Origin: a virus
IMG/VR virus record: IMGVR_UViG_3300025687_000279
Span: 1 to 26,094 of that record
Reading direction: 5' to 3' (one strand)
Length of the DNA stretch: 26,094 bases
Part shown: positions 4,210 through 25,382 of the stretch, in pieces
Position numbering within the stretch: the first letter of the stretch is position 1
Layout: every line of letters starts with the position of its first letter
Position numbers and translations under genes: made by a program
Notes under the pieces: generated by a model
Database searches by the model: none
The model's input: the letters and a program-made list of their open reading frames with translations, nothing else
Told to the model about the DNA's origin: nothing

Positions 4210-4230
4210 ACGAATACTCCTAAATTGTTT

Positions 4231-4893
4231 TTATTGATTGTCTAGTACATTCTTGAGCGAGGGAAATTGCTCAGTGATGATGTTCCAACATTGTGTAGCG
4301 ATTTCACGGTGTTCTTTCTGGGTACCGTTATCCATGCGTAGTTCGCAATAGTGAATCCATGAGCGAAGTGAACCTGACATATACATGCGGCTCATAGTAA
4401 GACCTTCAGGCAGCACGACACGGGCTTGTTCTTTGGCGATACCATTCTTGATTGCCCAATCGTAAATATCATTTATACGATCCATAACTTCAAGCTGAAG
4501 GTTCTGCCACTCATTGTTTAGCGCCATGGCCTCATCATTCACGACACTGTTCTGACGATTCTTTGTATCCTGCATACGAGTTTCACGTGGCGCAGACATT
4601 TCCTGTACAGCAGCATAACGCTGGCTGAACTCTTGAAACGAGAACGAGCGATGACGAAGGATCTGACGGCCGATATCGCGCGTGGTCTGAATTTCCATGA
4701 TGACATGCACCATTTCAAAAGGCGACCAGTGCTTGTTCTTTACCAGATACTTGAGCAACTTTTCACTGTCTGGGTTGTCCTGATTGGCAGGATTAGATAC
4801 ACGCGCACAGTATGCAATCAAATCTTCTGCGCTATCCATAGACGAGTTTACCATAGTCGGCTGTGTAACACCGACCAACTTCACATTGTTCAT
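4231..4893 (-). CDS. thyX: flavin-dependent thymidylate synthase
   Basis: Converts dUMP to dTMP using methylene-tetrahydrofolate, NADPH and FAD. The diagnostic ThyX signature RHRX7S is present as RHRSFSFQEFSQRY (residues 80-93). Family-typical regions WSPFEMVHVIMEI and LPEGLTMSRMYMSGSLRSWIHY are also visible. I place the start at 4891-4893 (MNNVKLVGVTQP), next to AGAGGT; an upstream in-frame ATG at 4950 would overlap the preceding gene by more than 50 bases. 220 aa, close to normal for the family. It sits between primase and nrdJ, completing a dNTP-supply cassette. Confidence 0.94.
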   Translation of the reverse strand: MNNVKLVGVTQPTMVNSSMDSAEDLIAYCARVSNPANQDNPDSEKLLKYLVKNKHWSPFEMVHVIMEIQTTRDIGRQILRHRSFSFQEFSQRYAAVQEMSAPRETRMQDTKNRQNSVVNDEAMALNNEWQNLQLEVMDRINDIYDWAIKNGIAKEQARVVLPEGLTMSRMYMSGSLRSWIHYCELRMDNGTQKEHREIATQCWNIITEQFPSLKNVLDNQ

Positions 4894-7454: not shown

Positions 7455-8168
7455 TTATTTCTTTGTTTTTCTTAGATATGTCTTACCGTTCCAAGTAAAT
7501 TTTTGACCCTCTGGTGTTCTTGCGAAAATCTGTTTGAATGTTTCTTTATTATTAGATGATGATGTCACATCTTGCTTCTTGCCTTTAGATGTAAAATTCA
7601 AGTCCATTGATTTAGGTTCTGGAATAGAAACTGCTTGTTTAGTATTATCTAAAGGTCTCAATTTTGGTTTAGGCGGAGGAACAGCAGGTTCTTGTGTGGG
7701 CCTTAGTTTTGGCTTTGGTACAACTTTATCGACTGCTGTTTTAGGAACAGCAGGTGGTGTTTTCAATGGATCTGAATAAGTTGTCTTATAAGGACCTGAA
7801 CCAGGTGTAGGTGGCTCATCACCTGCTTCTGCTGCTGCAAGTCTATCTTTAACAGATGTTGGATATCCTGCGGGTGGTGAACGATAATCTTTGCGAAGAC
7901 CTAACTCACGCTTTGCATTTGGTTTATTAGAGATGCTTGATGGATCAATAGATTGACCGTTGCCAAGATCATATCGTGAGCCTGTGTAGTCTACCTTATC
8001 GCTTGGTGTAATTTTACTTGTTCCGTCAGCAGCAGGCATTGAACGAATGTTCATTTGCTTAAGGTCTTTATTTACCGTGTCAAAACCAGCTTCAAGTTTC
8101 TTTTGAATATCTGCTCTTCTTTGCTGAACTTGATCTTGTTCTAATATAAACTGTTTAAATGTTTTCAT
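7455..8168 (-). CDS. Pro-rich protein with T4-like capsid-targeting N-terminus
   Basis: Probable internal head protein, 237 aa. The first ten residues MKTFKQFILE closely match the T4 internal-protein targeting peptide MKTYQEFIAE, with I-x-E at 8-10 as in prohead-protease sites. The middle is low-complexity, proline- and lysine-rich (KLRPTQEPAVPPPKPKLRP). The C-terminus carries the FTWNGKTYLRKTKK motif that recurs at the ends of many phage virion proteins. The start overlaps the preceding holin stop by four bases (ATGA). If cleaved after Glu10, the mature protein would be disordered and basic. Its placement inside the lysis cluster is odd. No enzyme motif is seen. Confidence 0.75.
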   Translation of the reverse strand: MKTFKQFILEQDQVQQRRADIQKKLEAGFDTVNKDLKQMNIRSMPAADGTSKITPSDKVDYTGSRYDLGNGQSIDPSSISNKPNAKRELGLRKDYRSPPAGYPTSVKDRLAAAEAGDEPPTPGSGPYKTTYSDPLKTPPAVPKTAVDKVVPKPKLRPTQEPAVPPPKPKLRPLDNTKQAVSIPEPKSMDLNFTSKGKKQDVTSSSNNKETFKQIFARTPEGQKFTWNGKTYLRKTKK

Positions 8169-12781: not shown

Positions 12782-15700
12782 TTACTTCCTTCTGCAACGC
12801 CAGCGTCTCAATGAAGCTGCTTTACGAGTTGGTCTACCCTTCTTGTCTTTCATTGGACCTGGCATTCCGCTCATTCTTGCACAGAATGATTTGCGTCTTG
12901 CTTTTCTTTTTGGTCCTGGATTTGGTTCTGTTACTGCTGTCTGAACACCAAACTTCTTTGCACCTTTTGCTGTTAGACCTGCGCCGCTTTCTGTTGATCT
13001 GTAAAGACCTTTTGAATCTGCACCGCGTTCATTTAGTTGCTGTTCTTGAACCGTCTTCATTGATCTGGATGTTGATATATTGTAATTTTTTCCACCCAAT
13101 TCTTTGTTTTTTCCTAAATCTTGAGATGTTATCTTCTCTTTATATGTCTGTGTGCCGCTTGGTGTTTTTTGTATAGATTTATTTACTATAGTTTCAGTAC
13201 CACGACTAAAAGGGTTTTTGGTCTTCTTTACATAAACTGAAGAATTGTAATTGCCGTTACTCTCACGACCGCCTTGATAGTTTACTGTAGGAACATTTAT
13301 CTCATTCACATCATCTTTGCGCTGAGTTGGAATTGGACTTAGATTATTGACACTACCTTCCATACCTTCACGCAGCTTCTTGATAGATTTCTTTTCACTG
13401 TGACTGCAACCACAACCAGCCTCTTCTAATCTCAAAGCAGCTTCAACAAGTTTTTCTTCCCAAAGATTGCCGTACTTATCTGCAAACTTCTGTTGTGTTC
13501 TTTCTGATTGCATCCAGCTTACGATACTCTCTGACAATCCCATAGAGTATGCGCTACCATATCCAAAACCGTATGGTGTGCCTGCTCTTGGTACACCTAT
13601 TGTTGGACCAATACCATCAGCACCAAAAACATAACCACCCTGTACAGATGCTTCCGAAGCTTCTTGACTTAGTTTCTTTTTCTTTTTTTGACCCGGTGTC
13701 ATACCACGATAAAGATTATCTAATGAATCTGTTGCAATTTGTCTTTCACTTGGCTTATTGCCGTTTGCTTCTGCGAACTTTTCAAAAGCTTCGTTAGCAG
13801 GAACGCAGTTAGGTACTTTACGGCCGTTCTTTTTCTTCATGCCGACCATCTCGTAGCCTTTCCAGCACGGATCGTTCTTCTTCATCTTCTTTTCTTCGTT
13901 CATTGTTTGAACCCTTACTAATTGACCACCCTTACTATGATACATGACTTTGTTTACACCACCAACTTTGCGACCAAAGCGACCAAATCCATAATATGAC
14001 AATCCAAGTCTTCTAGCCTGAAGCATTAGATCATTATCTGGTTTATGAACAACTTTTGGAACGCCTTGACGAATTTGTGTGAGACTCTTATATCTCTTTG
14101 GCTCTTGATATGTGATGCCGCGCTTCTTTGTTTCAGCTTCAATCCACTTTGCAGCGGTTGGGTTTTTGTTCTCAGCACGAACAAACTGTTGAGCCATACG
14201 ACGAACACGATTAAAGTTGGTAAGAACTTTTGCTTTTTCTTCTGGACCAACTTTACGAATATCTGCTGTGTTATCAATAACAGTAAACTTTTCATTACCA
14301 AATATCTTTTGAAGTTCACCGATATTCTTCTGTGCTAAATCCCACTTCTCTTGACGAATGTTAGGTGAGTTGTCTGGATTACCTTGCTTGTCAGTACCAT
14401 CTGGAACTTTACGCTTACCCATCTTACCGCGTTCAACATTACGCTCACGCGATACTTCATTGGATGTGTTTACGAATACCATCATAGTTTCGTAACCATC
14501 ACGTTCAAGTTCACCCTTGATCTTTTTTATTTTCTCTAGATCATCTGCGGTACCGTTGATGATTAGACCAAGACGACCTGCTAGTGCTAGACGCTCTTGT
14601 TCCTTTGTAATGTTCTTCGCACGACCACGAACAATGTCACGCTCAACTCTTTCTTCATCTGGCATTTCAAGGTCAAGGCCGTTCTTCTGCATTAGATATT
14701 CAAATGCAACATCGGAATTGATTTCTTTCAATCCTTCTCCTGCAAGAGTTGCATTCATCACATAGTCTTTACCTGATCCTGGACCACCAGCTAAGAAGAT
14801 AGCTTTAAGTTTGCCAGGATCGTTGATTCCCTCTTCTAGTCTCTGCCCTATGTTTGGATTTATATTAAGAGTTTTTATTTTTTTTTCTTTTCCGCCCATT
14901 CTCATTTTTATTGTGTCTGTTTTAGATCCAACATATCTGTTTGGATCGGATCTTTTATTGACCACAGGAGTGTTTGATCTAAATTTGTTAGGATCAGCAT
15001 TAGGTATTCTTGGTTCTGGATCTAAAGTTGCGCCAGGTCTTACAAAATGTTGACGAAATTCTTTATCTTGTCTCTTCGCTTCAAGATTTTTTGCGAGTTC
15101 TTGAGAAGCAGGAGATGCCATTGTAATTTCATTCAATTGTTCTTTGATTGTTTTTAAACTTTTCATTGCTCTGCCTTTATACTCTTTTTTGCCTTTATAG
15201 TCCATCCAAGAATTATCAATACCGTCATCAACCCAAAGTCCTGATGTGTTATTCTTTATTTGATTTGTATATGATTGATTGTTTAAAACATACTGAGATG
15301 TTACTGTAGGCGAAACTTCACCTGTCACATTACCTAGACCACGTATACCACTAACTGGTGCTAGTGCTGCTGAGTTTGTTGATTCTACAACATAACTCTT
15401 GCTGAACATATCTGGATTAGATTTAGCGAACCAACGCATGATCTTACCTGCTTCCGCATTTGCTTCGTTCTCAATGTCTGAACCTGTCTCACCTTCTTTT
15501 GCTATATCTTTACCGAGACGACCATCTTCATTCTGCTTGTGATGCACAAGTTCATGTGCAACAGAACGAAATATATCCATTGGATGACGATTTGCTGTAC
15601 ATATAGAAAGTTCATTTGATGAGGGATTGTATGCAGCAAATGAGTTGTAGTCATCATCATTTGTCTTGTATCTGACAGTAGGCATTGATTTGAGACCAAG

Positions 15701-16396
15701 CTTGTCAGAAGCAAATGATACAAATGAATCAAGCATAGGTGCTAGTTCTTTGCGAGTGACTTCTTCTTTTAACTGCTTTATTGTTTTAGGCTTCTTGAGC
15801 ATTGCACCAATCTTATCATTCATTAGCTTATGAACAGATGCATTATACTTGCCAAACAAGTCCTTGATGAAAGCTTTTTGCTTCTCATCATTCAAGGAAA
15901 CAAACTGCTTACGTAGTTCTGAGGCCGATGTTGCTGGTTTGCCTAATACATCAAACGTAAATGTAGGTGTGACAATGACATATCCTTTTGGCATCATTGT
16001 ATCGCCAAACGGCTTTAGCTTCTTTTCGTTGCCTTTGTATGGTTGAAGATAGCCTGGTTTGCCAGATTTAGTTGGCTTGAATGAAAATCTAGGGTCTTCT
16101 TCCATGTCTTTTTGCGACACAGCAAATACCAAAACCGTAGTCTTGGGATCGTACTGTCTGAGTATTTCTCTGGCTATGTAGGGATTTGTGACTTGTTGAA
16201 TATCACTAGATGGCACACCAGCCAACATCATCATTCGTTTCTTCTCGGCGAAGTTGAATGGACTTTTTGGTGCTTCTACTTTATCTGAAGTGGCAATGAC
16301 TGCATCGCCAAACTTGTTTTTTAACCACTGATAGACCTGAGCGTGACCCTTATGAAATGGTTGAAAGCGCCCAGGATAAACTGCTAAAATTTTCAT
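12782..16396 (-). CDS. 1204-residue multidomain cargo protein (nucleotidyltransferase, metallopeptidase, P-loop kinase, basic tail)
   Basis: Domains in order: 1-195 HxGH nucleotidyltransferase (GRFQPFHKGH 9-18; SASELR 157-162); 215-340 metallopeptidase-like (HELVH, H281/E282/H285, with a possible third ligand in ENEANAE 309-315); 530-740 P-loop kinase (GGPGSGKD 537-544; Arg-rich SRERNVERGK). Then a CWKGYEMVGMKKKNGRKVPN block (844-863), a SESIVSWMQSERTQQKFADK block (954-973) and a basic Cys-containing end (KSFCARMSGMPGPMKDKKGR, DUF6321-like). Motifs resembling the T4 capsid-targeting peptide with L-x-E recur at 203-211, 414-423 and 1113-1123. This suggests fused cargo modules, possibly released by the prohead protease. 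A hairpin (16402-16430) abuts its ribosome-binding site. Confidence 0.85.
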   Translation of the reverse strand: MKILAVYPGRFQPFHKGHAQVYQWLKNKFGDAVIATSDKVEAPKSPFNFAEKKRMMMLAGVPSSDIQQVTNPYIAREILRQYDPKTTVLVFAVSQKDMEEDPRFSFKPTKSGKPGYLQPYKGNEKKLKPFGDTMMPKGYVIVTPTFTFDVLGKPATSASELRKQFVSLNDEKQKAFIKDLFGKYNASVHKLMNDKIGAMLKKPKTIKQLKEEVTRKELAPMLDSFVSFASDKLGLKSMPTVRYKTNDDDYNSFAAYNPSSNELSICTANRHPMDIFRSVAHELVHHKQNEDGRLGKDIAKEGETGSDIENEANAEAGKIMRWFAKSNPDMFSKSYVVESTNSAALAPVSGIRGLGNVTGEVSPTVTSQYVLNNQSYTNQIKNNTSGLWVDDGIDNSWMDYKGKKEYKGRAMKSLKTIKEQLNEITMASPASQELAKNLEAKRQDKEFRQHFVRPGATLDPEPRIPNADPNKFRSNTPVVNKRSDPNRYVGSKTDTIKMRMGGKEKKIKTLNINPNIGQRLEEGINDPGKLKAIFLAGGPGSGKDYVMNATLAGEGLKEINSDVAFEYLMQKNGLDLEMPDEERVERDIVRGRAKNITKEQERLALAGRLGLIINGTADDLEKIKKIKGELERDGYETMMVFVNTSNEVSRERNVERGKMGKRKVPDGTDKQGNPDNSPNIRQEKWDLAQKNIGELQKIFGNEKFTVIDNTADIRKVGPEEKAKVLTNFNRVRRMAQQFVRAENKNPTAAKWIEAETKKRGITYQEPKRYKSLTQIRQGVPKVVHKPDNDLMLQARRLGLSYYGFGRFGRKVGGVNKVMYHSKGGQLVRVQTMNEEKKMKKNDPCWKGYEMVGMKKKNGRKVPNCVPANEAFEKFAEANGNKPSERQIATDSLDNLYRGMTPGQKKKKKLSQEASEASVQGGYVFGADGIGPTIGVPRAGTPYGFGYGSAYSMGLSESIVSWMQSERTQQKFADKYGNLWEEKLVEAALRLEEAGCGCSHSEKKSIKKLREGMEGSVNNLSPIPTQRKDDVNEINVPTVNYQGGRESNGNYNSSVYVKKTKNPFSRGTETIVNKSIQKTPSGTQTYKEKITSQDLGKNKELGGKNYNISTSRSMKTVQEQQLNERGADSKGLYRSTESGAGLTAKGAKKFGVQTAVTEPNPGPKRKARRKSFCARMSGMPGPMKDKKGRPTRKAASLRRWRCRRK

Positions 16397-16401: not shown

Positions 16402-16430
16402 CTCTACAGGAATGTTATTATCCTATAGAG
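16402..16430 (-). promoter_or_regulatory. hairpin abutting the start of the 1204-aa gene
   Basis: Minus strand CTCTATAGGA, 9-nt loop, TCCTGTAGAG: 10 bp with one G-U pair. The last bases of the 3' arm are part of the GAGGG ribosome-binding site for the ATG at 16394-16396. The 5' arm is the coding end of the HAD gene. A degenerate late-like box (ACTAAATA) overlaps its upstream edge. Confidence 0.5.
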
Positions 16431-17104
16431 TATTTAGTGTTCCTTACTGCTTCACGAACTACAGATTTGATCGTTTTGGACATTGACTTTGGTGTGTATC
16501 TAGACACACGACCATTTTTTACTAGATAACCAATAGCTTCTACATTAGGAAACATAGCTGCGACTTTGTATAGAATGTCAAGATTCTTTTCATGATCATC
16601 CCACATACGAACACGATCATACTTGCCAGTCTTTAGGTATCTCTTGAGAACAACACCCTTATTGATATGTGCTGGAGAGTCTGTTTTGAGTTTGGCCAGA
16701 TTACCAGAACGTTCAACGTATACATGGTCAATTGGAAATCCATGATCACGCCATGTCTGTAGAAACTCTTTGTGATCTTCAAAGTCTGCTCTTGCTGTCA
16801 GAATGATAGAATCAGAGTTCTCAGACTGATTCATTACAATGTCACGCGCACGATCTAGAACAGTGCTGATAGGCTTGAATGTATCACGAAACACTTTACC
16901 TGAACGAAACTGAGAGAACTCAAACTCTTCACCAGCTTTTAGCTTGTATGAATTGAACTTGCCTGGTTCAAGAACTTTGATGATCTTGCCATCTTTCATG
17001 ACACTTACTCTAGCATCTGTTTTGCCTAGGGTGTCATCAATGTCCCATACATTCAATGTTCTGACTTCATTCTTGTGTTTCTTCAAATATGACTTCAGTT
17101 TCAT
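16418..17104 (-). CDS. HAD-superfamily phosphatase (polynucleotide 3'-phosphatase-like)
   Basis: Haloacid-dehalogenase fold phosphohydrolase, 228 aa. Motif I is NVWDIDDTLG (nucleophile D21, general acid D23), motif II is SIILTARADF, and the acidic metal motif is RMWDDHEKNL. This set resembles the 3'-phosphatase half of phage polynucleotide kinase/phosphatase and related phage HAD proteins, so nucleic-acid end repair is plausible but unproven. The N-terminus MKLKSYLKKHKNE loosely recalls the targeting peptides of its neighbours but lacks Glu at 10. ATGA overlap with the upstream ADP-ribosyltransferase-like gene; the P-loop-kinase-containing gene follows. Confidence 0.8.
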   Translation of the reverse strand: MKLKSYLKKHKNEVRTLNVWDIDDTLGKTDARVSVMKDGKIIKVLEPGKFNSYKLKAGEEFEFSQFRSGKVFRDTFKPISTVLDRARDIVMNQSENSDSIILTARADFEDHKEFLQTWRDHGFPIDHVYVERSGNLAKLKTDSPAHINKGVVLKRYLKTGKYDRVRMWDDHEKNLDILYKVAAMFPNVEAIGYLVKNGRVSRYTPKSMSKTIKSVVREAVRNTKYSIG

Positions 17105-17604
17105 TTCTTAGCTGCTTTCGCTCTCTTCTTTACAAATCTTACAGCTTTGGCAAACTTGTCGTTCTTACCCTGTTTCATTAGATCATCATGCTCACCAGCT
17201 TCAACGGCTCTACGTAGTTCAGGATCTGCATCTATGTATCGGACAGTAGCATGCCATTCTTTGTGTGCTGTAATGTCTTTTGCAGGCACTTCATCTTTAC
17301 GAACAAATGGTGCTGAGTAATCGTCTTTGTCTACATGAAACTCTGCTGTTGGTGTACTATGTGCAGGTCCATAAAAACCTCTATTCTTACTATCAGGCGG
17401 TGAAGCATAGATTGCTTTTGGTCCTTCATAACCTTTAGCGTGTGATAGTTTAATTCCTTGCTTACGAATATTCGTCAGATTTTTTGCGCTTGTTTGATGA
17501 TATAGTTTTACTTTGCCTTCTGGTGCAGGAATAGAACCAGGTTCTGCTGGTACTTCCCAACGAGGGCGTTTCATTTCTGTGATGTATTGATTGAATGTTT
17601 TCAT
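17101..17604 (-). CDS. capsid-targeted ADP-ribosyltransferase-like protein
   Basis: Starts MKTFNQYITEM at 17602-17604, an almost exact copy of the T4 targeting peptide (I-x-E at 8-10); the ATG overlaps the upstream stop (ATGA). The body has KLYHQTSAKNLTNIRKQGIK, then AIYASPP and FYGPAH, and later EWHATVRYI. An H-x-T plus N-L-x-x-I-x-x-x-G-I layout occurs in ADP-ribosyltransferases of the DarT/Tpt1 type, which modify nucleic acid or proteins with NAD. T4 Alt, also a head-packaged and protease-trimmed protein, is an ADP-ribosyltransferase, which makes this reading attractive. Assignment by motif only. C-terminus very basic (KKRAKAAKK). 167 aa. Confidence 0.6.
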   Translation of the reverse strand: MKTFNQYITEMKRPRWEVPAEPGSIPAPEGKVKLYHQTSAKNLTNIRKQGIKLSHAKGYEGPKAIYASPPDSKNRGFYGPAHSTPTAEFHVDKDDYSAPFVRKDEVPAKDITAHKEWHATVRYIDADPELRRAVEAGEHDDLMKQGKNDKFAKAVRFVKKRAKAAKK

Positions 17605-18836
17605 TTGGACCATGCCTTTGCTGAATTGAAGTTTGCTTGTGAGAACTCTAGTCTATCTACAAGTTTTACAGCTTTGCCGATACGATCAATAGCAACAAAC
17701 CCTTCAGGAGCTGTTATCTTTAGTCCAGTTGCGTCTGTGCGTAGATATGTTCCAACACTGTCTTGGACCTGCTGTAGTTTCTTGACTATCATATTCTTAG
17801 CACGAACCAGCAAGTTTTGCAAGTCAAAAATCTTCTTTAGTTCATTCTTGTTTGACTTATAAAATTCCATCACAATCTTCTTTTCCATCTGGCGCTTTTG
17901 CTTTGTGTCAGCCTTCTTTGCTTCCAATATGGACTTGTTCATCTTCTCTTCCACTGTAGCAATAAGACCTGCAACATGTTGAGATGTGTTTGTGATTTCT
18001 TTTCCTTCGCGTACCTTTGTATTATTCCATGCTTTGATTGCAATTTTGTATGTGTCGTTTGTTGCGATAGTGTTCATTGTGCGTGGTGATATGGTACGAA
18101 ATAAAGTGCCTGCCTGTGACAGAATAGAATTGAGAGCATCAGTTTCTTGTTTCGTAAATGTAGCAGTGCCACTAGCATCAACAAATGAAGCATCACGATA
18201 CCAGACATTTCTTGATGGCTTCAAACCAGATATGTCTGCACCAAATGATGCTCTCATATCTGCCATCGTATTGCCATTGTATGTTGTATGCCATACGATA
18301 CCCATCTTTGCTGTGCGTATTGACTTTGCTAGATTACTATCTTCTGGGACAGCATAGACGATTGTGTTAGGCTGAAATGTCACATACTCTTTGCCTTCTA
18401 TTGTTTCATCTTTTAGATCAGCAGAAGTAAACATCATATCACCTTGCAGAACACCATCAATACCAAGTTCTGGCAAATACTGTAATGCGATCTTCAGCTT
18501 CTTGTTAAGTCCCTCACCTGGATGATTTGCATCAATATCTGCATTGGTATAATTAAGCTTTGCGTTCTGAGCAAACACACCTTTAGTACCAACAAAGAAC
18601 TTACCATTCTCTGGATTAATACCAGCAAAGATAGCAGGAGCGCCATCCCACTTCGTTGTTAGATTGACAGTTCTACCAGAAGCATGACCAGCAAGCATAT
18701 CACGAAGAGACTGTAGAAAGGATATTGCGCCTCTTGTGCCAGAAACGCCGCCATTGAGTACCTCGTCTTCTAGGTGTTCTAAATGAAGGTTCTTACCTTC
18801 TTTTGATTCTGTTAGGTAGTCTTGATATGGTATCAT
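17601..18836 (-). CDS. capsid-targeted ATP-dependent ligase-like protein (DUF6267-like)
   Basis: 411 aa. N-terminus MIPYQDYLTES has aromatics at 4 and 7 and L-x-E at 8-10, matching head-targeting peptides. The covalent nucleotidyltransferase signature KxDG is present as TTKWDGAPAIF (K62, D64, G65). A motif-III-like LQGDMMF (130-136), a motif-IV-like PEGFVAI (377-383) and a motif-V-like KAVKLV (388-393) follow in ligase order. The overall sequence resembles a T4-superfamily family I know as DUF6267, not biochemically characterised as far as I recall. Predicted to join or cap nucleic acid ends. TAATG overlap with the upstream gene and ATGA with the downstream gene. Confidence 0.7.
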   Translation of the reverse strand: MIPYQDYLTESKEGKNLHLEHLEDEVLNGGVSGTRGAISFLQSLRDMLAGHASGRTVNLTTKWDGAPAIFAGINPENGKFFVGTKGVFAQNAKLNYTNADIDANHPGEGLNKKLKIALQYLPELGIDGVLQGDMMFTSADLKDETIEGKEYVTFQPNTIVYAVPEDSNLAKSIRTAKMGIVWHTTYNGNTMADMRASFGADISGLKPSRNVWYRDASFVDASGTATFTKQETDALNSILSQAGTLFRTISPRTMNTIATNDTYKIAIKAWNNTKVREGKEITNTSQHVAGLIATVEEKMNKSILEAKKADTKQKRQMEKKIVMEFYKSNKNELKKIFDLQNLLVRAKNMIVKKLQQVQDSVGTYLRTDATGLKITAPEGFVAIDRIGKAVKLVDRLEFSQANFNSAKAWSK

Positions 18837-20329: not shown

Positions 20330-20420
20330 TGGCGGAAGGAGTGGGATTCGAACCCACGGTACCTGATTAGGGTACGCCTCGTTAGCAGTGAGGTGCCTTC
20401 GGCCTCTCGGCCATCCTTCC
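20330..20420 (-). tRNA. tRNA-Ser(GCT)
   Basis: 91 nt with encoded CCA, discriminator G, and a long variable arm as expected for serine. Anticodon loop CTGCTAA; T-loop TTCGAAT. The last tRNA of the array in transcription order. Confidence 0.95.
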
Positions 20421-20424
20421 TATA

Positions 20425-20874
20425 TTATTCTGTAATCTCTATATATGTATTATACTTGCCGTATTCGTTTACGATGCGGTACAACCAACGAGCATTCTGA
20501 GGGCTAAGACGAATACATCCATGTGATGCGGGTTGACCAAGCTTCTTTACTTCTGTTGTCGCATGAATTGCATAACCACCATGAAAGAAGATAGAATGAG
20601 GCATCGGCGCATTATTATATTTGGATGAATAGTGCATCGGCCTTAACAGATAAGGCTGAAACACACCAGTCGGAGTACGATATCCCTTACGACCGGTAGA
20701 AACGTCCCACTCAAAATAGTCAGTAGGTGTTTCTACATACATCTTCTGATCGGACTTGTCAATCCGAATAATCACTTCATGCTCACCAAGCGGCTCAACA
20801 CCAGCTTTAGCACCGTTAACAAGCATAAAGATTGCAGCAGTCATCACTGTCAACATAACAAAAAACTTAGTCAT
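20425..20874 (-). CDS. secreted L,D-transpeptidase (YkuD family)
   Basis: Periplasmic enzyme that forms or ex-changes 3-3 peptidoglycan crosslinks or attaches proteins to the wall. A signal peptide is clear: MTKF plus a hydrophobic stretch FVMLTVMTAAIFMLVNG and a predicted cut after AKA (residue 24). The catalytic signature is complete: H104 in YAIHAT, then S117-H118-G119-C120-I-R122 with nucleophile C120. 149 aa, a single-domain form. It lies in the tRNA array, not in the lysis cluster. It could modify the wall during infection, for example to delay lysis or exclude other phages; that role is inference. Confidence 0.9.
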   Translation of the reverse strand: MTKFFVMLTVMTAAIFMLVNGAKAGVEPLGEHEVIIRIDKSDQKMYVETPTDYFEWDVSTGRKGYRTPTGVFQPYLLRPMHYSSKYNNAPMPHSIFFHGGYAIHATTEVKKLGQPASHGCIRLSPQNARWLYRIVNEYGKYNTYIEITE

Positions 20875-20875
20875 T

Positions 20876-21373
20876 TTATCCTACCTTCACTTGTGGAATA
20901 TGTTGAATTGCGTCCTTGTACCTGTCAGCACAGTAAGATGCTGCCCAAGCATTTGGCTTCACTAGAGGTACCACATTACACATACCACGAATGTAACCAA
21001 CAGCTTCATTTATAACACAAGATGAACCGTGTTTCAAGTCAGGATTGATGTCCAGATGAATTTCAAAGTCACGTTCGCCAATTGCTTCCTCAAGGTCGAG
21101 GTACAACTGCGCTGTCTTCATCACTTCATTCATCAGACGCATACGTGGCTTGTCCTTCTGCTGATCATAGTCACGCTCACGCATAACGGAACCAAACACA
21201 CGACAGCCGTTCTTGCCGTTCTTATGAACAACGACAACGTTGATGTAGTCAGCCATCCAAACGCCATTCAACTGAAAGCGTTCTGAGTCGCCACCTAGAT
21301 ATACTTTTGTTTCCTTAGATTGTGCTTGAATGAATGCACGAACTTCGTCTAAATCCATATTCTTTCTAATCAT
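20876..21373 (-). CDS. RNase H-like protein of the YkuK family
   Basis: The sequence shows GGDSER near residue 27-32, a central VVVHKNG, the acidic EIHLDINPD block and a C-terminal KPNAWAASYCAD. This is the pattern of the uncharacterised YkuK/DUF458 RNase H-fold family, so a nuclease acting on RNA is plausible, but activity is unproven. 165 aa. The start is ambiguous: the ATG at 21371-21373 overlaps the end of the YspA-like gene, while the ATG at 21356-21358 is better spaced from AGAAAG. The stop is one base from the L,D-transpeptidase ATG side of the junction. Confidence 0.82.
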   Translation of the reverse strand: MIRKNMDLDEVRAFIQAQSKETKVYLGGDSERFQLNGVWMADYINVVVVHKNGKNGCRVFGSVMRERDYDQQKDKPRMRLMNEVMKTAQLYLDLEEAIGERDFEIHLDINPDLKHGSSCVINEAVGYIRGMCNVVPLVKPNAWAASYCADRYKDAIQHIPQVKVG

Positions 21374-21707
21374 TTATTTTCACAACTGGGATACCAGCTG
21401 ACTCCGCTAAGTTAATCATCATTTGAGTGCCTTTACCACCTGGAAAAGCTATTACCAAATCTGGTTTGCCTTCATTCAACATTTGCACATTGCGAATGTA
21501 TCCTGCTCTTTTACCATATTTATTCCAATCAGCAGGATAATTCTTGAACTCAATACCATTGTCAACTGCCCAGATTTTGGCCAGATCGTCTGCTCCTCTA
21601 GCAGAACCTTGAATGATGATATTGTCTTTTGAAGCATAAGGCTGGAGTGCCTTATTAAGGAGGGCTCTGTTATTGAAGTCACGGCCGCCGCATACTAGAA
21701 TACGCAT
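21366..21707 (-). CDS. YspA-like SLOG-family protein (DUF2493)
   Basis: Rossmann-like nucleotide-sensing domain: MRILVCGGRDFNNRALLNKA, then IIQGSARGADDLAKIWAV and VIAFPGGKGTQMMI. These are the three conserved blocks of the cpYpsA/YspA SLOG family, which bind nucleotide-derived ligands and often accompany defence or NAD/ADP-ribose metabolism. 113 aa, typical length. The ribosome-binding site and ATG lie in a 17-base sequence (ATAGGAACTTAACAATG) that recurs on the opposite strand at 25729-25745. It overlaps the YkuK-like gene. Confidence 0.85.
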   Translation of the reverse strand: MRILVCGGRDFNNRALLNKALQPYASKDNIIIQGSARGADDLAKIWAVDNGIEFKNYPADWNKYGKRAGYIRNVQMLNEGKPDLVIAFPGGKGTQMMINLAESAGIPVVKIND

Positions 21708-21723
21708 TGTTAAGTTCCTATAA

Positions 21724-21797
21724 TGGTGCCTCTATCCAGAATCGAACTGGAGCCAATCCCCTACCAAAGGATTGTTCTACCACTATACTATAGAGGC
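21724..21797 (-). tRNA. tRNA-Thr(GGT)
   Basis: 74 nt, encoded CCA, acceptor GCCTCTA/TAGAGGC, anticodon loop TTGGTAG, T-loop TTCGATT. Confidence 0.93.
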
Positions 21798-21803
21798 AGT
21801 GAT

Positions 21804-21888
21804 TGGTGCGGGTAGAGAGACTTGAACTCCCATGGATTACTCCGCTGGAACCTAAATCCAGTGCGTCTGCCAATTTCGCCATACCCGC
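21804..21888 (-). tRNA. tRNA-Leu(TAG)
   Basis: 85 nt with class II variable arm and encoded CCA. Acceptor GCGGGTA/TACCCGC, anticodon loop TTTAGGT, T-loop TTCAAGT. Confidence 0.93.
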
Positions 21889-21893
21889 ATTAA

Positions 21894-21968
21894 TGGTAGC
21901 CGCTGAGAGAATCGAACTCCCTACACCCTCGGTGTAAACGAGGTGTTCTACCAGTGAACTAAGCGGCT
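21894..21968 (-). tRNA. tRNA-Val(TAC)
   Basis: 75 nt, acceptor AGCCGCT/AGCGGCT, A73, encoded CCA, anticodon loop TTTACAC. Its 5' end overlaps the last codons of the heme oxygenase gene by 10 bases. Confidence 0.93.
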
Positions 21969-22456
21969 TTGATTTCGTTCATGATGTTTAGAAGGGCTTG
22001 AAAACAGTTTCTGGCTTCTACAATCACATCTTCGCGCTCTCTAAACTTTGTTAATTCTACTATTGCTGCTTTTCTATCTGACCATTCAAGATGACTGGTA
22101 GGATAGCCAACAAGTCTTCTACGCATTACTTCACCGCCCATCAAATGGGCACCTGTCAATACATAAGCTGAGCCAACGATATCTTTTTCCGTATTCAGTC
22201 TATTTACATAATCGTTAGCTGTGCGGATTATATTAACAGGACAGTTTGTATCTGTTAAGTCTTTTTGAACTTGTTCCGATCTGCGAATGATTTCTGGAAT
22301 GTGCTGATCTACAGTCCAGTGAATTGTGTACAAAGCAGAAAGCCAGTCTGCATACCATTGCATTGGTGGTTTTCCAGATGCCATAGCAGCACCTACTGGA
22401 TGTTCCTCACAAGCATGATGCAAGTCTCTTGTGCCTTCCCATAATGGTCCTGGCAT
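21959..22456 (-). CDS. heme oxygenase-like protein
   Basis: Predicted to open heme to biliverdin, releasing Fe(II) and CO. The proximal-His region is GTRDLHHACEEHP (H13 as ligand in the T-x3-H pattern). The flexible distal-helix glycines appear in GSAYVLTGAHLMGGEVMRRR. 165 aa, all-helical as expected. Heme oxygenases are known in marine cyanophages for pigment synthesis; in a presumed alphaproteobacterial phage, iron release or a bilin signal is more likely. AGGAG precedes the ATG. The stop codon (TAG) lies inside the tRNA-Val gene, so tRNA processing would cut the mRNA at its very end. Confidence 0.85.
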   Translation of the reverse strand: MPGPLWEGTRDLHHACEEHPVGAAMASGKPPMQWYADWLSALYTIHWTVDQHIPEIIRRSEQVQKDLTDTNCPVNIIRTANDYVNRLNTEKDIVGSAYVLTGAHLMGGEVMRRRLVGYPTSHLEWSDRKAAIVELTKFREREDVIVEARNCFQALLNIMNEIKAA

Positions 22457-22473
22457 ATTATCTCCTATAAAAC

Positions 22474-22567
22474 TGGAGGCCCGTTAGCTTGTCATGCAGC
22501 CTACTGGTTTGGAAACCAGCATCTGAACGACTTACCCCTCTAAAGGACTTCTATACCGCTACGGGCC
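22474..22567 (-). tRNA. aberrant tRNA-like gene A (no canonical T-loop)
   Basis: 94 nt with a perfect 7-bp acceptor (GGCCCGT/ACGGGCC), U73 and encoded CCA. The interior is odd: a 5-bp stem CTGGT/ACCAG closes a 6-nt loop TTCCAA, resembling a Gly(TCC) or Trp anticodon arm that has lost one base. A canonical TTC T-loop is missing; the equivalent place holds GCATGACA in an imperfect stem. It may be a decayed tRNA or a distinct tRNA-like RNA. Identity not assigned. Confidence 0.45.
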
Positions 22568-22583
22568 AAGAGCGGTTTCTAAA

Positions 22584-22757
22584 TTACATACCAGACATTA
22601 ATGATGTGATAGAATCAGAAATCCAGAGCCACCATGCTGCAAGTGCTGCTACGATAGCTGCTCCACCTTTCTTCATGTCCCAGCCGTTCTGCCACATTGT
22701 CCATAGAACCCAAAGCACGGCTGCAATCAAAACTAAAACTACGATTGTGTTTAGCAT
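22584..22757 (-). CDS. small two-helix membrane protein, 57 aa
   Basis: Start at 22755-22757 (MLNTIVVLVLIAAVLWVLWT) because GAGGT is seven bases upstream; an in-frame ATG 33 bases further out has no ribosome-binding site. Two hydrophobic helices (residues about 3-22 and 33-50, GAAIVAALAAWWLWI) are joined by a short polar loop (WQNGWDMKKG). It could be a holin-like or superinfection-exclusion protein; neither is supported by a motif. A CATAAATA late box lies at 22795-22802. It sits between tRNA-Gly and the aberrant tRNA-like gene. Confidence 0.7.
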   Translation of the reverse strand: MLNTIVVLVLIAAVLWVLWTMWQNGWDMKKGGAAIVAALAAWWLWISDSITSLMSGM

Positions 22758-22794
22758 TTGTATTACCTCATTTAGACCTTGATTGGTCAATGAG

Positions 22795-22802
22795 TATTTA
22801 TG
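22795..22802 (-). promoter_or_regulatory. T4-like late promoter box CATAAATA
   Basis: Minus-strand CATAAATA between the tRNA-Gly CCA end and the small membrane protein, about 37 bases upstream of its ATG. Confidence 0.4.
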
Positions 22803-22804
22803 AT

Positions 22805-22878
22805 TGGAGCGGGTAGCGGGAATCGAACCCGCGCATTCTCGTTGGCAACGAGATAAGCTACCATTACATCATACCCGC
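22805..22878 (-). tRNA. tRNA-Gly(GCC)
   Basis: 74 nt, acceptor GCGGGTA/TACCCGC, U73 as usual for Gly, encoded CCA, anticodon loop TTGCCAA, T-loop TTCGATT. Confidence 0.95.
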
Positions 22879-22881
22879 AAT

Positions 22882-22957
22882 TGGTGCGTCTTCCAAGTTT
22901 CGAACTGGGTTGTTCGGCTTATGAGACCGATGAGATTGCCAACACCTCCCAAGACGC
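22882..22957 (-). tRNA. tRNA-Met(CAT), elongator or Ile2
   Basis: 76 nt, acceptor GCGTCTT/AAGACGC, A73, CCA, anticodon loop CTCATAA. The G1-C72 pair and lack of GGG/CCC in the anticodon stem exclude a normal initiator. A lysidine-modified Ile2 cannot be excluded. Confidence 0.9.
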
Positions 22958-22962
22958 ATTAA

Positions 22963-23038
22963 TGGTGCTGCCTCTCTGAATCGAACAGAGTCCCCACGCT
23001 CTTCAGGCGCATGTACGCACCAGCTATACCAAGGCAGC
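22963..23038 (-). tRNA. tRNA-Phe(GAA)
   Basis: 76 nt, acceptor GCTGCCT/AGGCAGC, A73, encoded CCA, anticodon loop CTGAAGA, T-loop TTCGATT. Confidence 0.95.
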
Positions 23039-23044
23039 GTTTAT

Positions 23045-23191
23045 TCAATCACGAAGCAACTGAGGAGCTGATTCCGTCAAGTTCTTCTTTTCGTATTCTT
23101 GTAGTTTAGCAGAGTATTGTTCGTTTGACAACCCATGCCAACCAATACACTTACCAGTTGGACTACGACCACAACCACAATCTTTAGACAT
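23045..23191 (-). CDS. CDGSH-like mini-protein, 48 aa
   Basis: Short gene between tRNA-Ser(TGA) and tRNA-Phe, starting at 23189-23191 with GAGGA upstream. The N-terminus MSKDCGCGRSPTGKCIGWHG has three Cys and one His (C5, C7, C15, H19) in an order close to the CDGSH [2Fe-2S] motif C-x-C-x2-S-x3-P-x-C-D-G-S-H, one residue shorter. The rest is a charged helix (NEQYSAKLQEYEKKNL). It may bind an iron-sulfur cluster or zinc. I have seen CGCGRSPTG-xC-xGWH in short alphaproteobacterial and phage proteins, but know no function. Confidence 0.65.
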   Translation of the reverse strand: MSKDCGCGRSPTGKCIGWHGLSNEQYSAKLQEYEKKNLTESAPQLLRD

Positions 23192-23207
23192 TTGCTTTCC
23201 TCTTGTT

Positions 23208-23295
23208 TGGCGGATAGGGTAGGATTCGAACCCACGGAACCGTTAAGTTCTTCGGTTTTCAAGACCGATGCGATAGACCACTCTGCCACCTATCC
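23208..23295 (-). tRNA. tRNA-Ser(TGA)
   Basis: 88 nt, long variable arm, G73, encoded CCA, anticodon loop CTTGAAA, T-loop TTCGAAT. Confidence 0.95.
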
Positions 23296-23333
23296 AAATT
23301 CGCTCCGATTTCTTAAAGTGGTTACGGCCTCCA

Positions 23334-23362
23334 CTATTATGTTAACGAGAGTTTCCAGTCAA
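23334..23362 (-). promoter_or_regulatory. candidate promoter TTGACT-17-TAATAG
   Basis: Minus-strand TTGACT (23357-23362), 17 bp, TAATAG (23334-23339), 39 bases upstream of tRNA-Ser(TGA). Weaker -10 than its neighbour at 23429-23457. Confidence 0.4.
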
Positions 23363-23428
23363 GTACAGTCCACTCACAAACCTCTAGCTGCGGGATGGCG
23401 GAACGCATTACTTGCCGCCACGATGTAT

Positions 23429-23457
23429 ATATTAGACTGTATCCCACATATTGTCAA
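23429..23457 (-). promoter_or_regulatory. sigma70-type promoter TTGACA-17-TAATAT
   Basis: Minus-strand TTGACA (23452-23457), 17 bp, TAATAT (23429-23434), directly after the RlpA-like stop codon. It should re-initiate transcription of the distal part of the tRNA array. The leader contains a GGCGG/CCGCC hairpin. Confidence 0.65.
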
Positions 23458-23459
23458 GT

Positions 23460-23822
23460 CTATCTTTTCTTCTTCTTTCCTAAGATTTCAACCTTGACTG
23501 TGCAAACTCCACCGCAGCCGATCTTTCTAGCGGCTGCTCTTGATAGGTCTAATTGTCTACCCTTGATGAACGGGCCCCTATCATTAATTACTACTATTAC
23601 CGATCTTCCTTTGTGTGTAACTCTCAGTCTTGTGCCAAAAGGCAATGTCTTGTGTGCTGCTGTTAAAGCATTTGGATTGAATTTTTGCCCGCTTGCAGTA
23701 ATCTTGCTTTTACTACATTCGCCAGGCTTGACGCAATCATACCAAGATGCTACCATTGTTGTAGCATTACTGGGTGCTGTCATTAAAAAAAGGACAGCAA
23801 AGGCTGCTATTAATAGTTTCAT
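23460..23822 (-). CDS. RlpA-like secreted double-psi beta-barrel protein
   Basis: 120 aa from the ATG at 23820-23822, preceded by AAGGAAAA. The signal peptide MKLLIAAFAVLFLMTAPSNA is followed by a domain with ASWYD, SGQKFNPNALTAAHKTLPFG, RVTHKGRSVIVVINDRGPF and the catalytic-type Asp in QLDLSRAAARKIG. These match RlpA/DPBB lytic transglycosylases acting on denuded glycan. Extra Cys pairs (CVKPGEC; CGGVC) could form disulfides in the periplasm. No lipobox, so soluble. Together with the L,D-transpeptidase it is the second exported wall enzyme in the tRNA array. Confidence 0.88.
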   Translation of the reverse strand: MKLLIAAFAVLFLMTAPSNATTMVASWYDCVKPGECSKSKITASGQKFNPNALTAAHKTLPFGTRLRVTHKGRSVIVVINDRGPFIKGRQLDLSRAAARKIGCGGVCTVKVEILGKKKKR

Positions 23823-23838
23823 TGTTGTTTTCCTTGTA

Positions 23839-23932
23839 TGGAGCATCTGACAGGATTCGAACCTGCATTAGGTACTTCTACCCATGTCCAGTTACCTTAC
23901 TCTCCGTTCGTAGCGGAGGGGGCTACAGATGC
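23839..23932 (-). tRNA. aberrant tRNA-Arg(ACG)-like gene B (no D-arm in usual place)
   Basis: 94 nt with perfect acceptor GCATCTG/CAGATGC, U73, CCA and a normal T-arm (TTCGAAT). A perfect anticodon arm CTCCG-CTACGAA-CGGAG gives anticodon ACG, but only 7 bases separate it from the acceptor, so there is no room for a D-arm. Instead 35 bases follow the anticodon arm, including D-arm-like text GGTAACTGG...TACC. It is the only arginine candidate in the array. Confidence 0.5.
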
Positions 23933-23938
23933 ATAGTT

Positions 23939-24013
23939 TGGAGGGGCCAACCAGATTTGAACTGGTACCTCAAGGATTTGCAGTCCCGCGCATTACCGTT
24001 TTGCTATGGCCCC
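23939..24013 (-). tRNA. tRNA-Cys(GCA)
   Basis: 75 nt, acceptor GGGGCCA/TGGCCCC, U73 as usual for Cys, CCA, anticodon loop CTGCAAA. Confidence 0.95.
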
Positions 24014-24018
24014 ATAAA

Positions 24019-24092
24019 TGGCTGCCCAGCATGGATTCGAACCACGATAGCCAGAGTCAGAATCTGGCGTCCTACCGTTAGACGACCGGGCA
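24019..24092 (-). tRNA. tRNA-Gln(CTG)
   Basis: 74 nt, acceptor TGCCCGG/CTGGGCA with U1-A72 and G73 as expected for Gln, CCA, anticodon loop TTCTGAC. Confidence 0.94.
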
Positions 24093-24097
24093 ATAAT

Positions 24098-24172
24098 TGG
24101 TACTGCATGGGGGAATCGAACCACCGTAACAGGTTTCACAGACCTGCGTCTTAGCCACTAGACTAATGCAGC
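24098..24172 (-). tRNA. tRNA-His(GTG), alphaproteobacterial form
   Basis: 75 nt, anticodon loop CTGTGAA. The discriminator is A73, base pair 1-72 is G-U, and the base before G1 is T, so there is no encoded G-1 opposite C73. This departs from most bacteria and matches the unusual histidine tRNA known from alphaproteobacteria. Confidence 0.94.
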
Positions 24173-24173
24173 A

Positions 24174-24251
24174 TGGAAGCGGGAGCAGGATTCGAACCTG
24201 CGACCTCTAGGATATGAACCTAGCAAGCTGACCTGACTGCTCTATCCCGCA
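24174..24251 (-). tRNA. initiator-like tRNA-Met(CAT)
   Basis: 78 nt. D-arm (AGAGCAG...AGCT) and variable loop (AGGTC) resemble initiator tRNA, and 1-72 is an unpaired U-U, the hallmark that blocks EF-Tu and marks initiators. However, the anticodon stem CTAGG/CCTAG lacks the full three G-C pairs, and position 73 is U. CCA encoded. Only one base separates it from tRNA-His. Confidence 0.8.
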
Positions 24252-24256
24252 ATATT

Positions 24257-24331
24257 TGGCAGCGCATAAGGGAATTGAACCCTTCTCTCCGGATTGAAAG
24301 CCCAGCATTCTGACCACTAAACTAATGCGCC
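24257..24331 (-). tRNA. tRNA-Glu(TTC)
   Basis: 75 nt, acceptor GGCGCAT/ATGCGCT (G1-U72), G73, CCA, anticodon loop CTTTCAA. Confidence 0.94.
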
Positions 24332-24336
24332 ATAAT

Positions 24337-24420
24337 TGGAGGACTGGGTGGGACTCGAACCCACGGTGTTTGCATAGCGGATTAAAAGTCCGCGCCGTTC
24401 GCCACTACGGTAACCAGTCC
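24337..24420 (-). tRNA. tRNA-Lys(TTT) with 12-nt variable region
   Basis: 84 nt, acceptor GGACTGG/CCAGTCC, U73, CCA. Anticodon stem GCGGA/TCCGC with loop CTTTTAA. The variable region is about 12 bases, far longer than the normal 5 for lysine tRNA, and U73 is not the usual lysine discriminator. Confidence 0.88.
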
Positions 24421-24473
24421 GTCTTTGTGTAGTGCGGCTTCATCTATGGACTATATGCTATGCAAGCACGAAT

Positions 24474-24547
24474 TGGCTGGGGAACGTGGATTCGAACCAC
24501 GACCGGAAGTTTCAAAGACTTCTATCCTACCTTTAGATGATTCCCCA
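24474..24547 (-). tRNA. tRNA-Gln(TTG)
   Basis: 74 nt, acceptor TGGGGAA/TTCCCCA (U1-A72), G73, CCA, anticodon loop CTTTGAA. The 53 bases to its left (24421-24473) hold nothing recognisable. Confidence 0.95.
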
Positions 24548-24554
24548 ATAAACA

Positions 24555-24654
24555 GGTGCGAGGAGAAGGATTCGAACCTTCATGGTGCCTGCGTGAGTTC
24601 ACGCTTTACGGCTACCCTCCTGCCGGATGCTTTTACCAGTTTCGCCATCCTCGC
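24555..24654 (-). tRNA. aberrant tRNA-like gene C (Leu-like ends, no clear anticodon)
   Basis: Perfect acceptor GCGAGGA/TCCTCGC, A73, a leucine-type D-arm (GGCGAAACTGGTAAAAGC) and a normal T-arm GAAGG-TTCGAAT-CCTTC. The encoded 3' end is ACCT, not CCA. Between D- and T-arms lie 46 bases with stems CGGC/GCCG closing a 9-nt loop AGGAGGGTA, and GCGTG/CACGC closing AACT. No loop has the required pyrimidine-T before an anticodon. Either a decayed or interrupted tRNA-Leu, or a tRNA-mimic RNA. Confidence 0.45.
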
Positions 24655-24657
24655 AAT

Positions 24658-24731
24658 TGGTTGGCCAGTAGGGAATCGAACCCTCATCGGACGCCTATCA
24701 AGCGCCTGCTTTACCATTAAGCTACAAGCCA
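24658..24731 (-). tRNA. tRNA-Ile(GAT)
   Basis: 74 nt, CCA encoded, A73, anticodon loop TTGATAG, T-loop TTCGATT. The acceptor stem has one U-U mismatch (6-67). The next 101 bases (24732-24832) contain a hairpin ACCGCC/GGCGGT and an AGAC-tatat-GTCT hairpin, but no gene I can name. Confidence 0.9.
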
Positions 24732-24832
24732 GTGAATTGTGAACCGTTTCGCTGGTCCCACTGAAAGGACGATCAACCCCGACAGACATATAGTCTCGGA
24801 CTTATATACCGCCACGGCCTACGGCGGTTACT

Positions 24833-24915
24833 TGGTGGGCAGGTGTGGTTACGCTCCACTCCCCTATGGACGGGTTTTACAGACCCGCTGCTGAAACTAC
24901 CAGCTTTACCTACCC
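24833..24915 (-). tRNA. tRNA-Tyr(GTA) with atypical T-loop
   Basis: 83 nt, acceptor GGGTAGG/CCTGCCC, A73, CCA. Perfect anticodon arm CGGGT-CTGTAAA-ACCCG. The T-stem GTGG/CCAC closes the loop AGCGTAA, lacking the universal TTC; the D-loop also lacks a clear GG pair in the usual setting. Amino-acid identity is clear, but tertiary D-T contacts would be abnormal. Confidence 0.8.
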
Positions 24916-24921
24916 GTTGTA

Positions 24922-24995
24922 TGGTGCCGCATGAGAGAATCGAACTCCCATCAGAGGATTACAAAGCCCCTGTATTGCCATTATACTAATGCGGC
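24922..24995 (-). tRNA. tRNA-Thr(TGT)
   Basis: 74 nt, acceptor GCCGCAT/ATGCGGC, A73, CCA, anticodon loop TTTGTAA (one mismatch closing the loop), T-loop TTCGATT. Confidence 0.92.
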
Positions 24996-25000
24996 GTTAT

Positions 25001-25075
25001 TGGTGGACCCTAAGAGAATCGAACTCTTACTTTCGCCGTGCAAAGGCGACATGCTCCCATTATCATCAAGGGCCC
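25001..25075 (-). tRNA. tRNA-Ala(TGC)
   Basis: 75 nt, acceptor GGGCCCT/AGGGTCC. The 3-70 pair is G-U, the alanine identity element. A73, CCA, anticodon loop TTTGCAC. Confidence 0.94.
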
Positions 25076-25080
25076 GTTAT

Positions 25081-25154
25081 TGGCACCAGTGCAAGGATTC
25101 GAACCCTGACAAGCAGTTTTGGAGGCTGCCGTGCTACCGTTACACTACACTGAT
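25081..25154 (-). tRNA. tRNA-Trp(CCA)
   Basis: 74 nt, acceptor ATCAGTG/CACTGGT, G73 as expected for Trp, CCA, anticodon loop CTCCAAA. Confidence 0.94.
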
Positions 25155-25160
25155 TTGAAT

Positions 25161-25237
25161 TGGTCCGGGCGGAAGGATTTGAACCCTCGACCCTCCGCTC
25201 CCAAAGCGGATGCTCTACCAGACTGAGCCACACCCGG
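25161..25237 (-). tRNA. tRNA-Pro(TGG)
   Basis: 77 nt, acceptor CCGGGTG/CGCCCGG (C1-G72), A73, CCA, anticodon loop TTTGGGA, T-loop TTCAAAT. Confidence 0.95.
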
Positions 25238-25308: not shown

Positions 25309-25382
25309 TGGCGACCTATGCGAGGCTCAAACTCGCTTCTCCGCTTAGACAGAGCGGTGTGATATCCATTCACTAATAGGCC
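25309..25382 (-). tRNA. tRNA-Asp(GTC)
   Basis: 74 nt, acceptor GGCCTAT/ATAGGTC, G73, CCA, anticodon loop CTGTCTA. T-loop TTTGAGC has T in place of C56. Confidence 0.92.

Follow-up and report, generated by a model that had tools for sequence, protein, structure and literature searches.

The stretch of DNA analysed here—the window, 26,094 nucleotides of IMG/VR virus record IMGVR_UViG_3300025687_000279—encodes on its minus strand a 1204-residue protein, designated P0001, which is probably a head-cargo polyprotein of a T4-like phage that is cut by the prohead protease into separate enzymes. The source phage is a marine T4-like (Kyanoviridae-like) virus. A preliminary description, made from the sequence alone, had placed a protein of this length at positions 12782-16396, which was confirmed and assigned to the minus strand, unmentioned there; the reading frame opens only a few residues 5' of the ATG. 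That description had also read the protein as concatenated cargo, and the reading is supported by the mosaicism of the P0001 family, by a rule obeyed at the module borders, by leaders on stand-alone versions of the modules, and by the presence of gp21 and gp23 in relatives.

In the proposed mechanism, genes for head-packaged enzymes, each with a leader ending in an [L/I]-x-E prohead-protease site, would have been fused into the P0001 gene. The full chain would be packaged into the core of the prohead, with an internal leader-like segment perhaps serving as the signal, and a gp21-type serine protease would then cut it after E211, E423, E522 and E1123, and probably at a few further positions. 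Cleavage would release a nicotinamide mononucleotide (NMN) adenylyltransferase-like enzyme, a metallopeptidase-like domain, a polynucleotide-kinase-like kinase and a basic DUF6321 peptide, which would remain with the DNA and be injected into the next host cell at infection. Since the key catalytic motifs are intact in all three enzymatic modules, each could act once released. Targeting, cleavage, injection and virion location are inferred for P0001.

Conservation of L-x-E at the module borders

Relatives of P0001 were found among IMG/VR contigs of up to 167 kb, 29 of them close; a megablast search of the gene against isolated phages gave no match, relatives there being detectable at the protein level only. 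Residues upstream of the kinase start (G[IVL][NY]D) were compared across 45 distinct contexts, 19 fused and 26 non-fused, and in both groups the same rule is kept: P1 is Glu and P3 is Leu, Ile or Val in 45/45. P2 is free, with at least eight different residues seen, and P4-P10 are near random, with an entropy of ~3-3.5 bits. At this border Glu is encoded by both of its codons (GAA 28, GAG 17) and Leu by at least five, indicating that selection acts on the protein sequence. The border of the HEXXH metallopeptidase-like module obeys the rule in 13/13 distinct contexts ([LI]xE preceding EVTRKELAP), and that of the DUF6321 tail does so in 7/7. The contexts are partly related phylogenetically, at least eight of the upstream sequences being mutually unrelated as judged by inspection. 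Even if the Glu is counted as a residue of the kinase module, the restriction at P3 over unrelated upstream sequences would stand as strong independent evidence, Leu, Ile and Val together making up 16% of residues.

That the motif is merely generic, L-x-E being common in charged linkers, is the least probable of the explanations considered. P0001 does contain 16 [LIV]xE triplets, as such an account would have it, but at any one position [LIV]xE has a background frequency of 1.3%, against 45/45 at the kinase border. Chance was ruled out for the kinase, HEXXH and DUF6321 borders by conservation at the exact position downstream of unrelated sequences. A longer, targeting-like pattern, K[ST]-hydrophobic-x(2-6)-[LIV]xE, occurs five times in P0001 (two of them overlapping, at 412/415) versus 0.21 expected, and none of 5000 shuffles of the protein reached five.

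The three targeting-like segments listed in the preliminary description, KTIKQLKE (204-211), LKTIKEQLNE (414-423, inside MKSLKTIKEQLNE) and MKTVQEQQLNE (1113-1123), lie exactly at those positions, with L-x-E at the end of each. Omitted from that list were the border that is conserved best, RLEE^GINDPGK (519-522; ^ marks the predicted cut), and KLRE^GMEG (1010). A failure of these motifs to be conserved in relatives had been named there as a refutation; it does not apply to L-x-E, which never varies at the borders, but does in part to the remainder of each quoted motif, the K-[ST]-hydrophobic part being kept in some relatives such as L022 (MKSFKNLRENLNE^GIND) and lost in others.

This partial erosion of the leader-like sequences is what would be expected under the principal competing explanation, namely that the L-x-E motifs are relics of once-separate leaders and that P0001 is never cut, serving as one multifunctional enzyme in the infected cell or being injected intact. 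However, L-x-E is kept in every fused context (19/19 for the kinase, 13/13 for the HEXXH module) as its neighbours drift and synonymous codons are used, and its retention alongside a free P2 and free P4-P10 indicates that something still selects for it. Inserted modules, moreover, bring their own terminal L-x-E. A fossil fusion of this kind is thus considered unlikely.

Module exchange and stand-alone genes

The family formed by P0001 and its 29 close relatives is a mosaic, in which modules are exchanged, inserted or placed in separate genes. In place of the N-terminal nucleotidyltransferase (NTase), L004, L005, L020, L021, L025 and L029 have non-homologous NTases, and L016, L018 and L020 have a different C-terminal part. 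A ParB-like module—labelled by eye from a DGHHRW motif, Pfam and PHROGs giving no match—is inserted exactly at border 1 in L003 and L022, and in the latter is bracketed as QLKE^...QLKE^. Module 3 (residues 424-518) is shared with L003 but lacking in most relatives, such that QLNE^VTMASP...QRLEE^GIND in L003 corresponds to QLNE^GIND in L011. Inserted modules are flanked on both sides by L-x-E (QLNE^..RLEE^, QLKE^..QLKE^, and IRE^..LQE^ against LNE^), and a PAP2 phosphatase module is likewise a precise L-x-E-bracketed insertion when L112 is compared with L138.

In other phage lineages the kinase lies within differently ordered large proteins that also obey the border rule (L112, L138, L140 and AUZ94865 of phage Atu_ph07). 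The 1067-residue L112 protein (1069-4269) comprises the kinase, the PAP2 phosphatase, a Pol-beta-like NTase and an NTase resembling NMN adenylyltransferase (NMNAT), with joints of [LIV]xE or FE type; L138 is an 811-residue polyprotein with the kinase; and AUZ94865 has a module resembling ADP-ribosyltransferases (ART-like), the kinase and two repeats. These proteins bear on the suggestion that the zincin-like HEXXH domain processes its own chain, before or after injection, in the manner of polyvalent proteins. The domain is embedded in P0001 with conserved ligand-like residues, and it has been proposed that such domains process the multidomain injected proteins in which they lie (Iyer et al., PMC5512222). 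Yet identical L-x-E borders are found in polyproteins that have no HEXXH motif (L112, L138, L140 and that of Atu_ph07) and in stand-alone genes, the motif fits gp21 specificity, and in Synechococcus phage B23, where the metallopeptidase stands alone, the motif forms its own leader. Self-processing therefore seems improbable.

A check proposed in the preliminary description was to see if relatives carry the modules as genes of their own that begin at these motifs, and they do. The stand-alone kinase starts MKTFAELQE^GVYDP in Methylophilales phage Melnitz, MIPFILKE^GLYDP in Pelagibacter phage HTVC008M, and MKVNSFIQHLAE^, MKTYEQIRFLNE^ or MKSLKQFWELRE^ in further contigs; the B23 metallopeptidase starts MNYKQFLRE^STEKQ, and a cyanophage NMNAT-type NTase MKKFSAFLNE^. 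The stand-alone leaders end exactly at the module border and have the form of a T4-like capsid-targeting leader. Within P0001 a Met opens the leader-like segments exactly at 411 and 1113, and T4 gene 21 is annotated with an internal start, from which it could be argued that internal translation starts (e.g. at Met411 and Met1113) yield the modules separately. However, the Met is not conserved (L009 has TKSFKSLRENLNE and L011 VKGFKAVRTQLNE), and no clear Shine-Dalgarno sequence was seen by eye before Met1113, leaving this a very improbable account.

Probable association with the head and comparison with known systems

The prohead protease of T4, gp21, cuts after L/I-X-E, and the leaders of T4 cargo proteins end there (PMC9026906). 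The comparison of gp21 and gp23 was made in the genomes of relatives, the window record being a 26-kb fragment: three long relatives (G001, G002 and G004) encode both gp21 (PF03420, S77 prohead protease) and gp23, and their gp23 proteins have VLNE^AAPT or QLNE^SAPT near the mature start, with LNE as at borders 423 and 1123.

An NMNAT/cytidylyltransferase, T4-GC190, has been found by mass spectrometry in virions of several cyanophages (PMC3037559, PMC9602691, PMC10665884), a detection that covers homologous single-enzyme cargo only and not P0001 itself. All ten T4-GC190 homologues that were read (L155-L164, L153, L037 family) start M[KR][KS]F..F[LF]xE^A with a variable P2, and a T4-like leader would explain the repeated presence of this enzyme in virions. 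In Atu_ph07, 29 products of the cluster of coding sequences (CDS) 31-76 were detected in virions by mass spectrometry (PMC6102473); AUZ94865 is about gp53 by gene counting from the record start, and hence inside this cluster, its own detection being unconfirmed. It adjoins nine genes starting M[KR]W.QL.E. Positions 39484-49507 of the Atu_ph07 genome (L151, MF403008.1), on the minus strand, hold ten genes in a row, in each of which an ART-like YRGM/YRGI motif comes after an 8-residue leader, M[KR]W.(Q/D)L[NTI]E, with which the gene starts; judged from these motifs, the run is an apparent tandem array of Alt-like head cargo with one end gene fused to the kinase.

Several observations weigh against processing of P0001 in the head. 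The K-[ST]-hydrophobic sequence has decayed at several borders, as in KKNLQE^GIND and KHHSLNE. Triplets of the form [LIV]xE occur also within predicted folded parts of the protein (558, 694, 980, 985 and 992), and overall only some half of them fall in parts of the structure models that have low confidence, amounting to no clear enrichment. The gp23 cleavage site was placed by an alignment that is gapped there, so that the exact site is a deduced one. Finally, P0001 starts MKILAVYPGRFQPFHKGH, the T4-type N-terminal capsid-targeting leader is absent and leader-like segments are internal only; without a leader on the first module, an internal leader-like segment would have to target the chain, and targeting is the weak step of the mechanism. 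To judge from L140, which is arranged alike, with an unleadered adenylate-kinase-like sequence followed by LREFREYLNE^kinase, the unleadered first enzyme is more than a quirk of P0001 alone.

Like the P0001 family, T4 IPI, IPII, IPIII and Alt (PMC9026906, PMC3012670) combine an [L/I]-x-E leader with a gp21-type protease (in P0001's case, that of relatives) and packaging with the DNA, which for P0001 is a prediction; T4 cargo, however, has one module per gene and one N-terminal leader, whereas P0001 has several enzymes per chain and predicted internal sites, none N-terminal. Polyvalent proteins (PMC5512222) share with the family a chain made up of several unrelated enzymatic domains, the presence of zincin-like HEXXH and ParB-like modules, and predicted injection, but P0001-type borders bear prohead-protease motifs even where the metallopeptidase is absent; the P0001 family, moreover, is carried by T4-like phages, whose ARTs have been set apart from genuine polyvalent proteins (PMC5512222). 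Cyanophage T4-GC190 shares with P0001 the NTase family, a weak match to module 5 and a nearby DUF6267 gene, and has the leader M[KR][KS]F..FLxE^A; each of its genes encodes a single enzyme (in S-PM2 as a fusion with DUF6267), whereas P0001 lacks a leader and adds at least four modules. Head proteins of phiKZ and SPN3US (PMC10052503) undergo repeated A-x-E cuts by a gp21-like prohead protease, as several cuts are predicted in P0001, although the pieces removed there are propeptides and those of P0001 predicted enzymes. AUZ94865.1 (phrog_12810) is likewise comparable, having an N-terminal module with the leader MKWNDLNE^, the kinase at EVTE^GVND and two repeats at NLTE^LFDT and NLNE^LFDT; Atu_ph07 is a jumbo phage, and the partner modules differ from those of P0001. 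An earlier description of enzyme polyproteins bordered by prohead-protease sites was not found in the open-licence literature searched. The T4-style leader, gp21, the virion NMNAT and polyvalent proteins were already known; what this literature did not yield is their combination, a multi-enzyme chain with protease-site borders that double as exchange points.

Modules, neighbouring genes and implications

Four of the parts named in the preliminary description, an HxGH NTase, an HEXXH metallopeptidase-like domain, a P-loop kinase and a basic Cys tail, are marked by a Pfam match (1.7e-10), HELVH, GGPGSGK and DUF6321, respectively. Structures were modelled for two halves of P0001 from shallow alignments, with a mean predicted local distance difference test (pLDDT) score of 56-58; the models support the NTase and kinase folds, and borders 211, 423, 519-522 and 1123 fall in low-confidence linkers (pLDDT <50 at 201-216 for border 1).

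Module 1 has its HxGH motif (HKGH) at residues 15-18 and matches Pfam CTP_transf_like. NadM (2qjt) is the top fold match and also the profile match against the PDB (7e-6); matches to NMNAT equivalog models were all far under the cut-off, and these models do not assign an NMNAT substrate. The match of module 1 to phrog_395 is at only 2.6e-6, compared with ~1e-69 to 1e-70 for the L112 and L138 NTases. In module 2, H281, E282, H285, E309, N310 and E311 are invariant in the family alignment, and the stand-alone 124-residue homologue of phage B23 has a weak Pfam Peptidase_M78 match, below the cut-off; Foldseek on the half containing HEXXH returned NTases and did not independently confirm the HEXXH fold. 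The Zeta_toxin/AAA_33 match of module 4 spans 528-666, with the Walker A P-loop GGPGSGK at 537-543; the top Foldseek matches of its model are 4gp7/4gp6, a polynucleotide kinase, so that "polynucleotide-kinase-like" refers to the fold; a solved-structure search with the kinase-tail profile gave no match. Module 5, of 36 residues, matches the NadR-like protein of S-CREM1 weakly (42% over 38 residues, E 1e-4, pairwise blastp), and weakly resembles the segment after the leader in virion-borne T4-GC190. The CWKGYEMVGMKKK..PNCVP block is common to other cargo-like proteins, including the C-terminus of an L014 protein starting MKKFKEFLSE^ and the second large open reading frame (ORF) of L004. The DUF6321 match lies at 1138-1199, with matches of ~62 residues in cyanophage and pelagiphage proteins. 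In Synechococcus phage ACG-2014f (L036, 553-3195) a large protein has DUF6321 at its end and repeated FSNWRDD/FSSWRDDL motifs, and is possibly another repeat-bordered cargo protein.

Features of P0001 and neighbouring genes in the window (all on the minus strand)
Feature	Position	Residues	Basis
P0001, 1204-residue multi-enzyme polyprotein gene	12782..16396		ORF check and 29 IMG/VR relatives
Module 1, HxGH adenylyl/cytidylyltransferase, NMN-adenylyltransferase-like, no N-terminal leader	15788..16396	1-203	Pfam, fold and profile
Border 1, KTIKQLKE, predicted prohead-protease site after E211	15764..15787	204-211	border contexts
Module 2, HEXXH metallopeptidase-like domain	15383..15763	212-338	HELVH 281-285, ENEAN 309-313
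Border 2, MKSLKTIKEQLNE, internal leader-like sequence and predicted site	15128..15166	411-423	pLDDT <50 at 332-431
Module 3, 95-residue insert of unassigned function	14843..15127	424-518	L003 versus L011 comparison
Border 3, RLEE, predicted site ahead of kinase	14831..14842	519-522	[LIV]xE^G in 45/45 distinct contexts
Module 4, P-loop kinase, Zeta_toxin/AAA_33, polynucleotide-kinase-like fold	14120..14830	523-759	Pfam 4.6e-9
Module 5, small module	13910..14017	794-829	blastp versus S-CREM1 NadR-like protein
TMNEEKK, possible further site	13886..13906	831-837	MNE/LNE/LSE/VNE/MNED in relatives; pLDDT <50 at 831-841
CWKGYEMVGMKKK..PNCVP block	13799..13867	844-866	phrog_9737 and others
Border IKKLRE	13367..13384	1005-1010	LRE^GMEGG kept in L001, L009, L022
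Border 4, MKTVQEQQLNE	13028..13060	1113-1123	L[NH]E^RGADSKG in 7/7 distinct contexts; low pLDDT 997-1144
Module 6, DUF6321 basic Cys tail	12785..13027	1124-1204	Pfam 3.9e-14
HAD-like phosphatase (DIDDTL)	16418..17104		phrog_415, polynucleotide kinase family
Neighbour with leader MKTFNQYITE^	17101..17613		ART/KptA-like LYHQTS..I..GI pattern, by eye
DUF6267 neighbour with leader MIPYQDYLTE^	17601..18836		Pfam 6.2e-113; KWDGAPA motif
Gene with leader MKTFKQFILE^	7455..8168		leader read from ORF start

Among the neighbouring genes, the product of 17101..17613 had no family match in domain and family searches. In S-SM1 a DUF6267 gene adjoins that for the virion-type NTase (T4-GC71/T4-GC190), and in HTVC008M it lies near the NTase gene, company like that in the window. 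Grouped in the window are DUF6267, with an invariant KWDGAPA motif (ligase-like KxDG), the HAD phosphatase and the polynucleotide-kinase-like module; the three are possibly an injected RNA-end-repair set. The fragment also carries 23 tRNA genes, clustered on the minus strand within ~5 kb (20330-25557).

On balance, it appears that tailed phages may use viral-style polyproteins, in which an internal signal would bring one precursor of several host-takeover enzymes into the capsid, the capsid-maturation protease would free the enzymes as well as mature the head, and protease-site borders would allow cargo to be swapped in register. Little of the internal head cargo of marine T4-like phages has been catalogued; with a leader or border that finishes in [L/I]-x-E immediately ahead of a conserved domain as the criterion, injected enzymes would be flagged across very abundant ocean phages and their exact mature termini predicted. 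If the cargo-polyprotein reading is true, enzymes related to NAD and to RNA ends would be tied to the first minutes of infection, and P0001 would represent a polyprotein strategy in which double-stranded DNA phages rely on the capsid protease, a design naturally suited to packaging several proteins in a fixed ratio.

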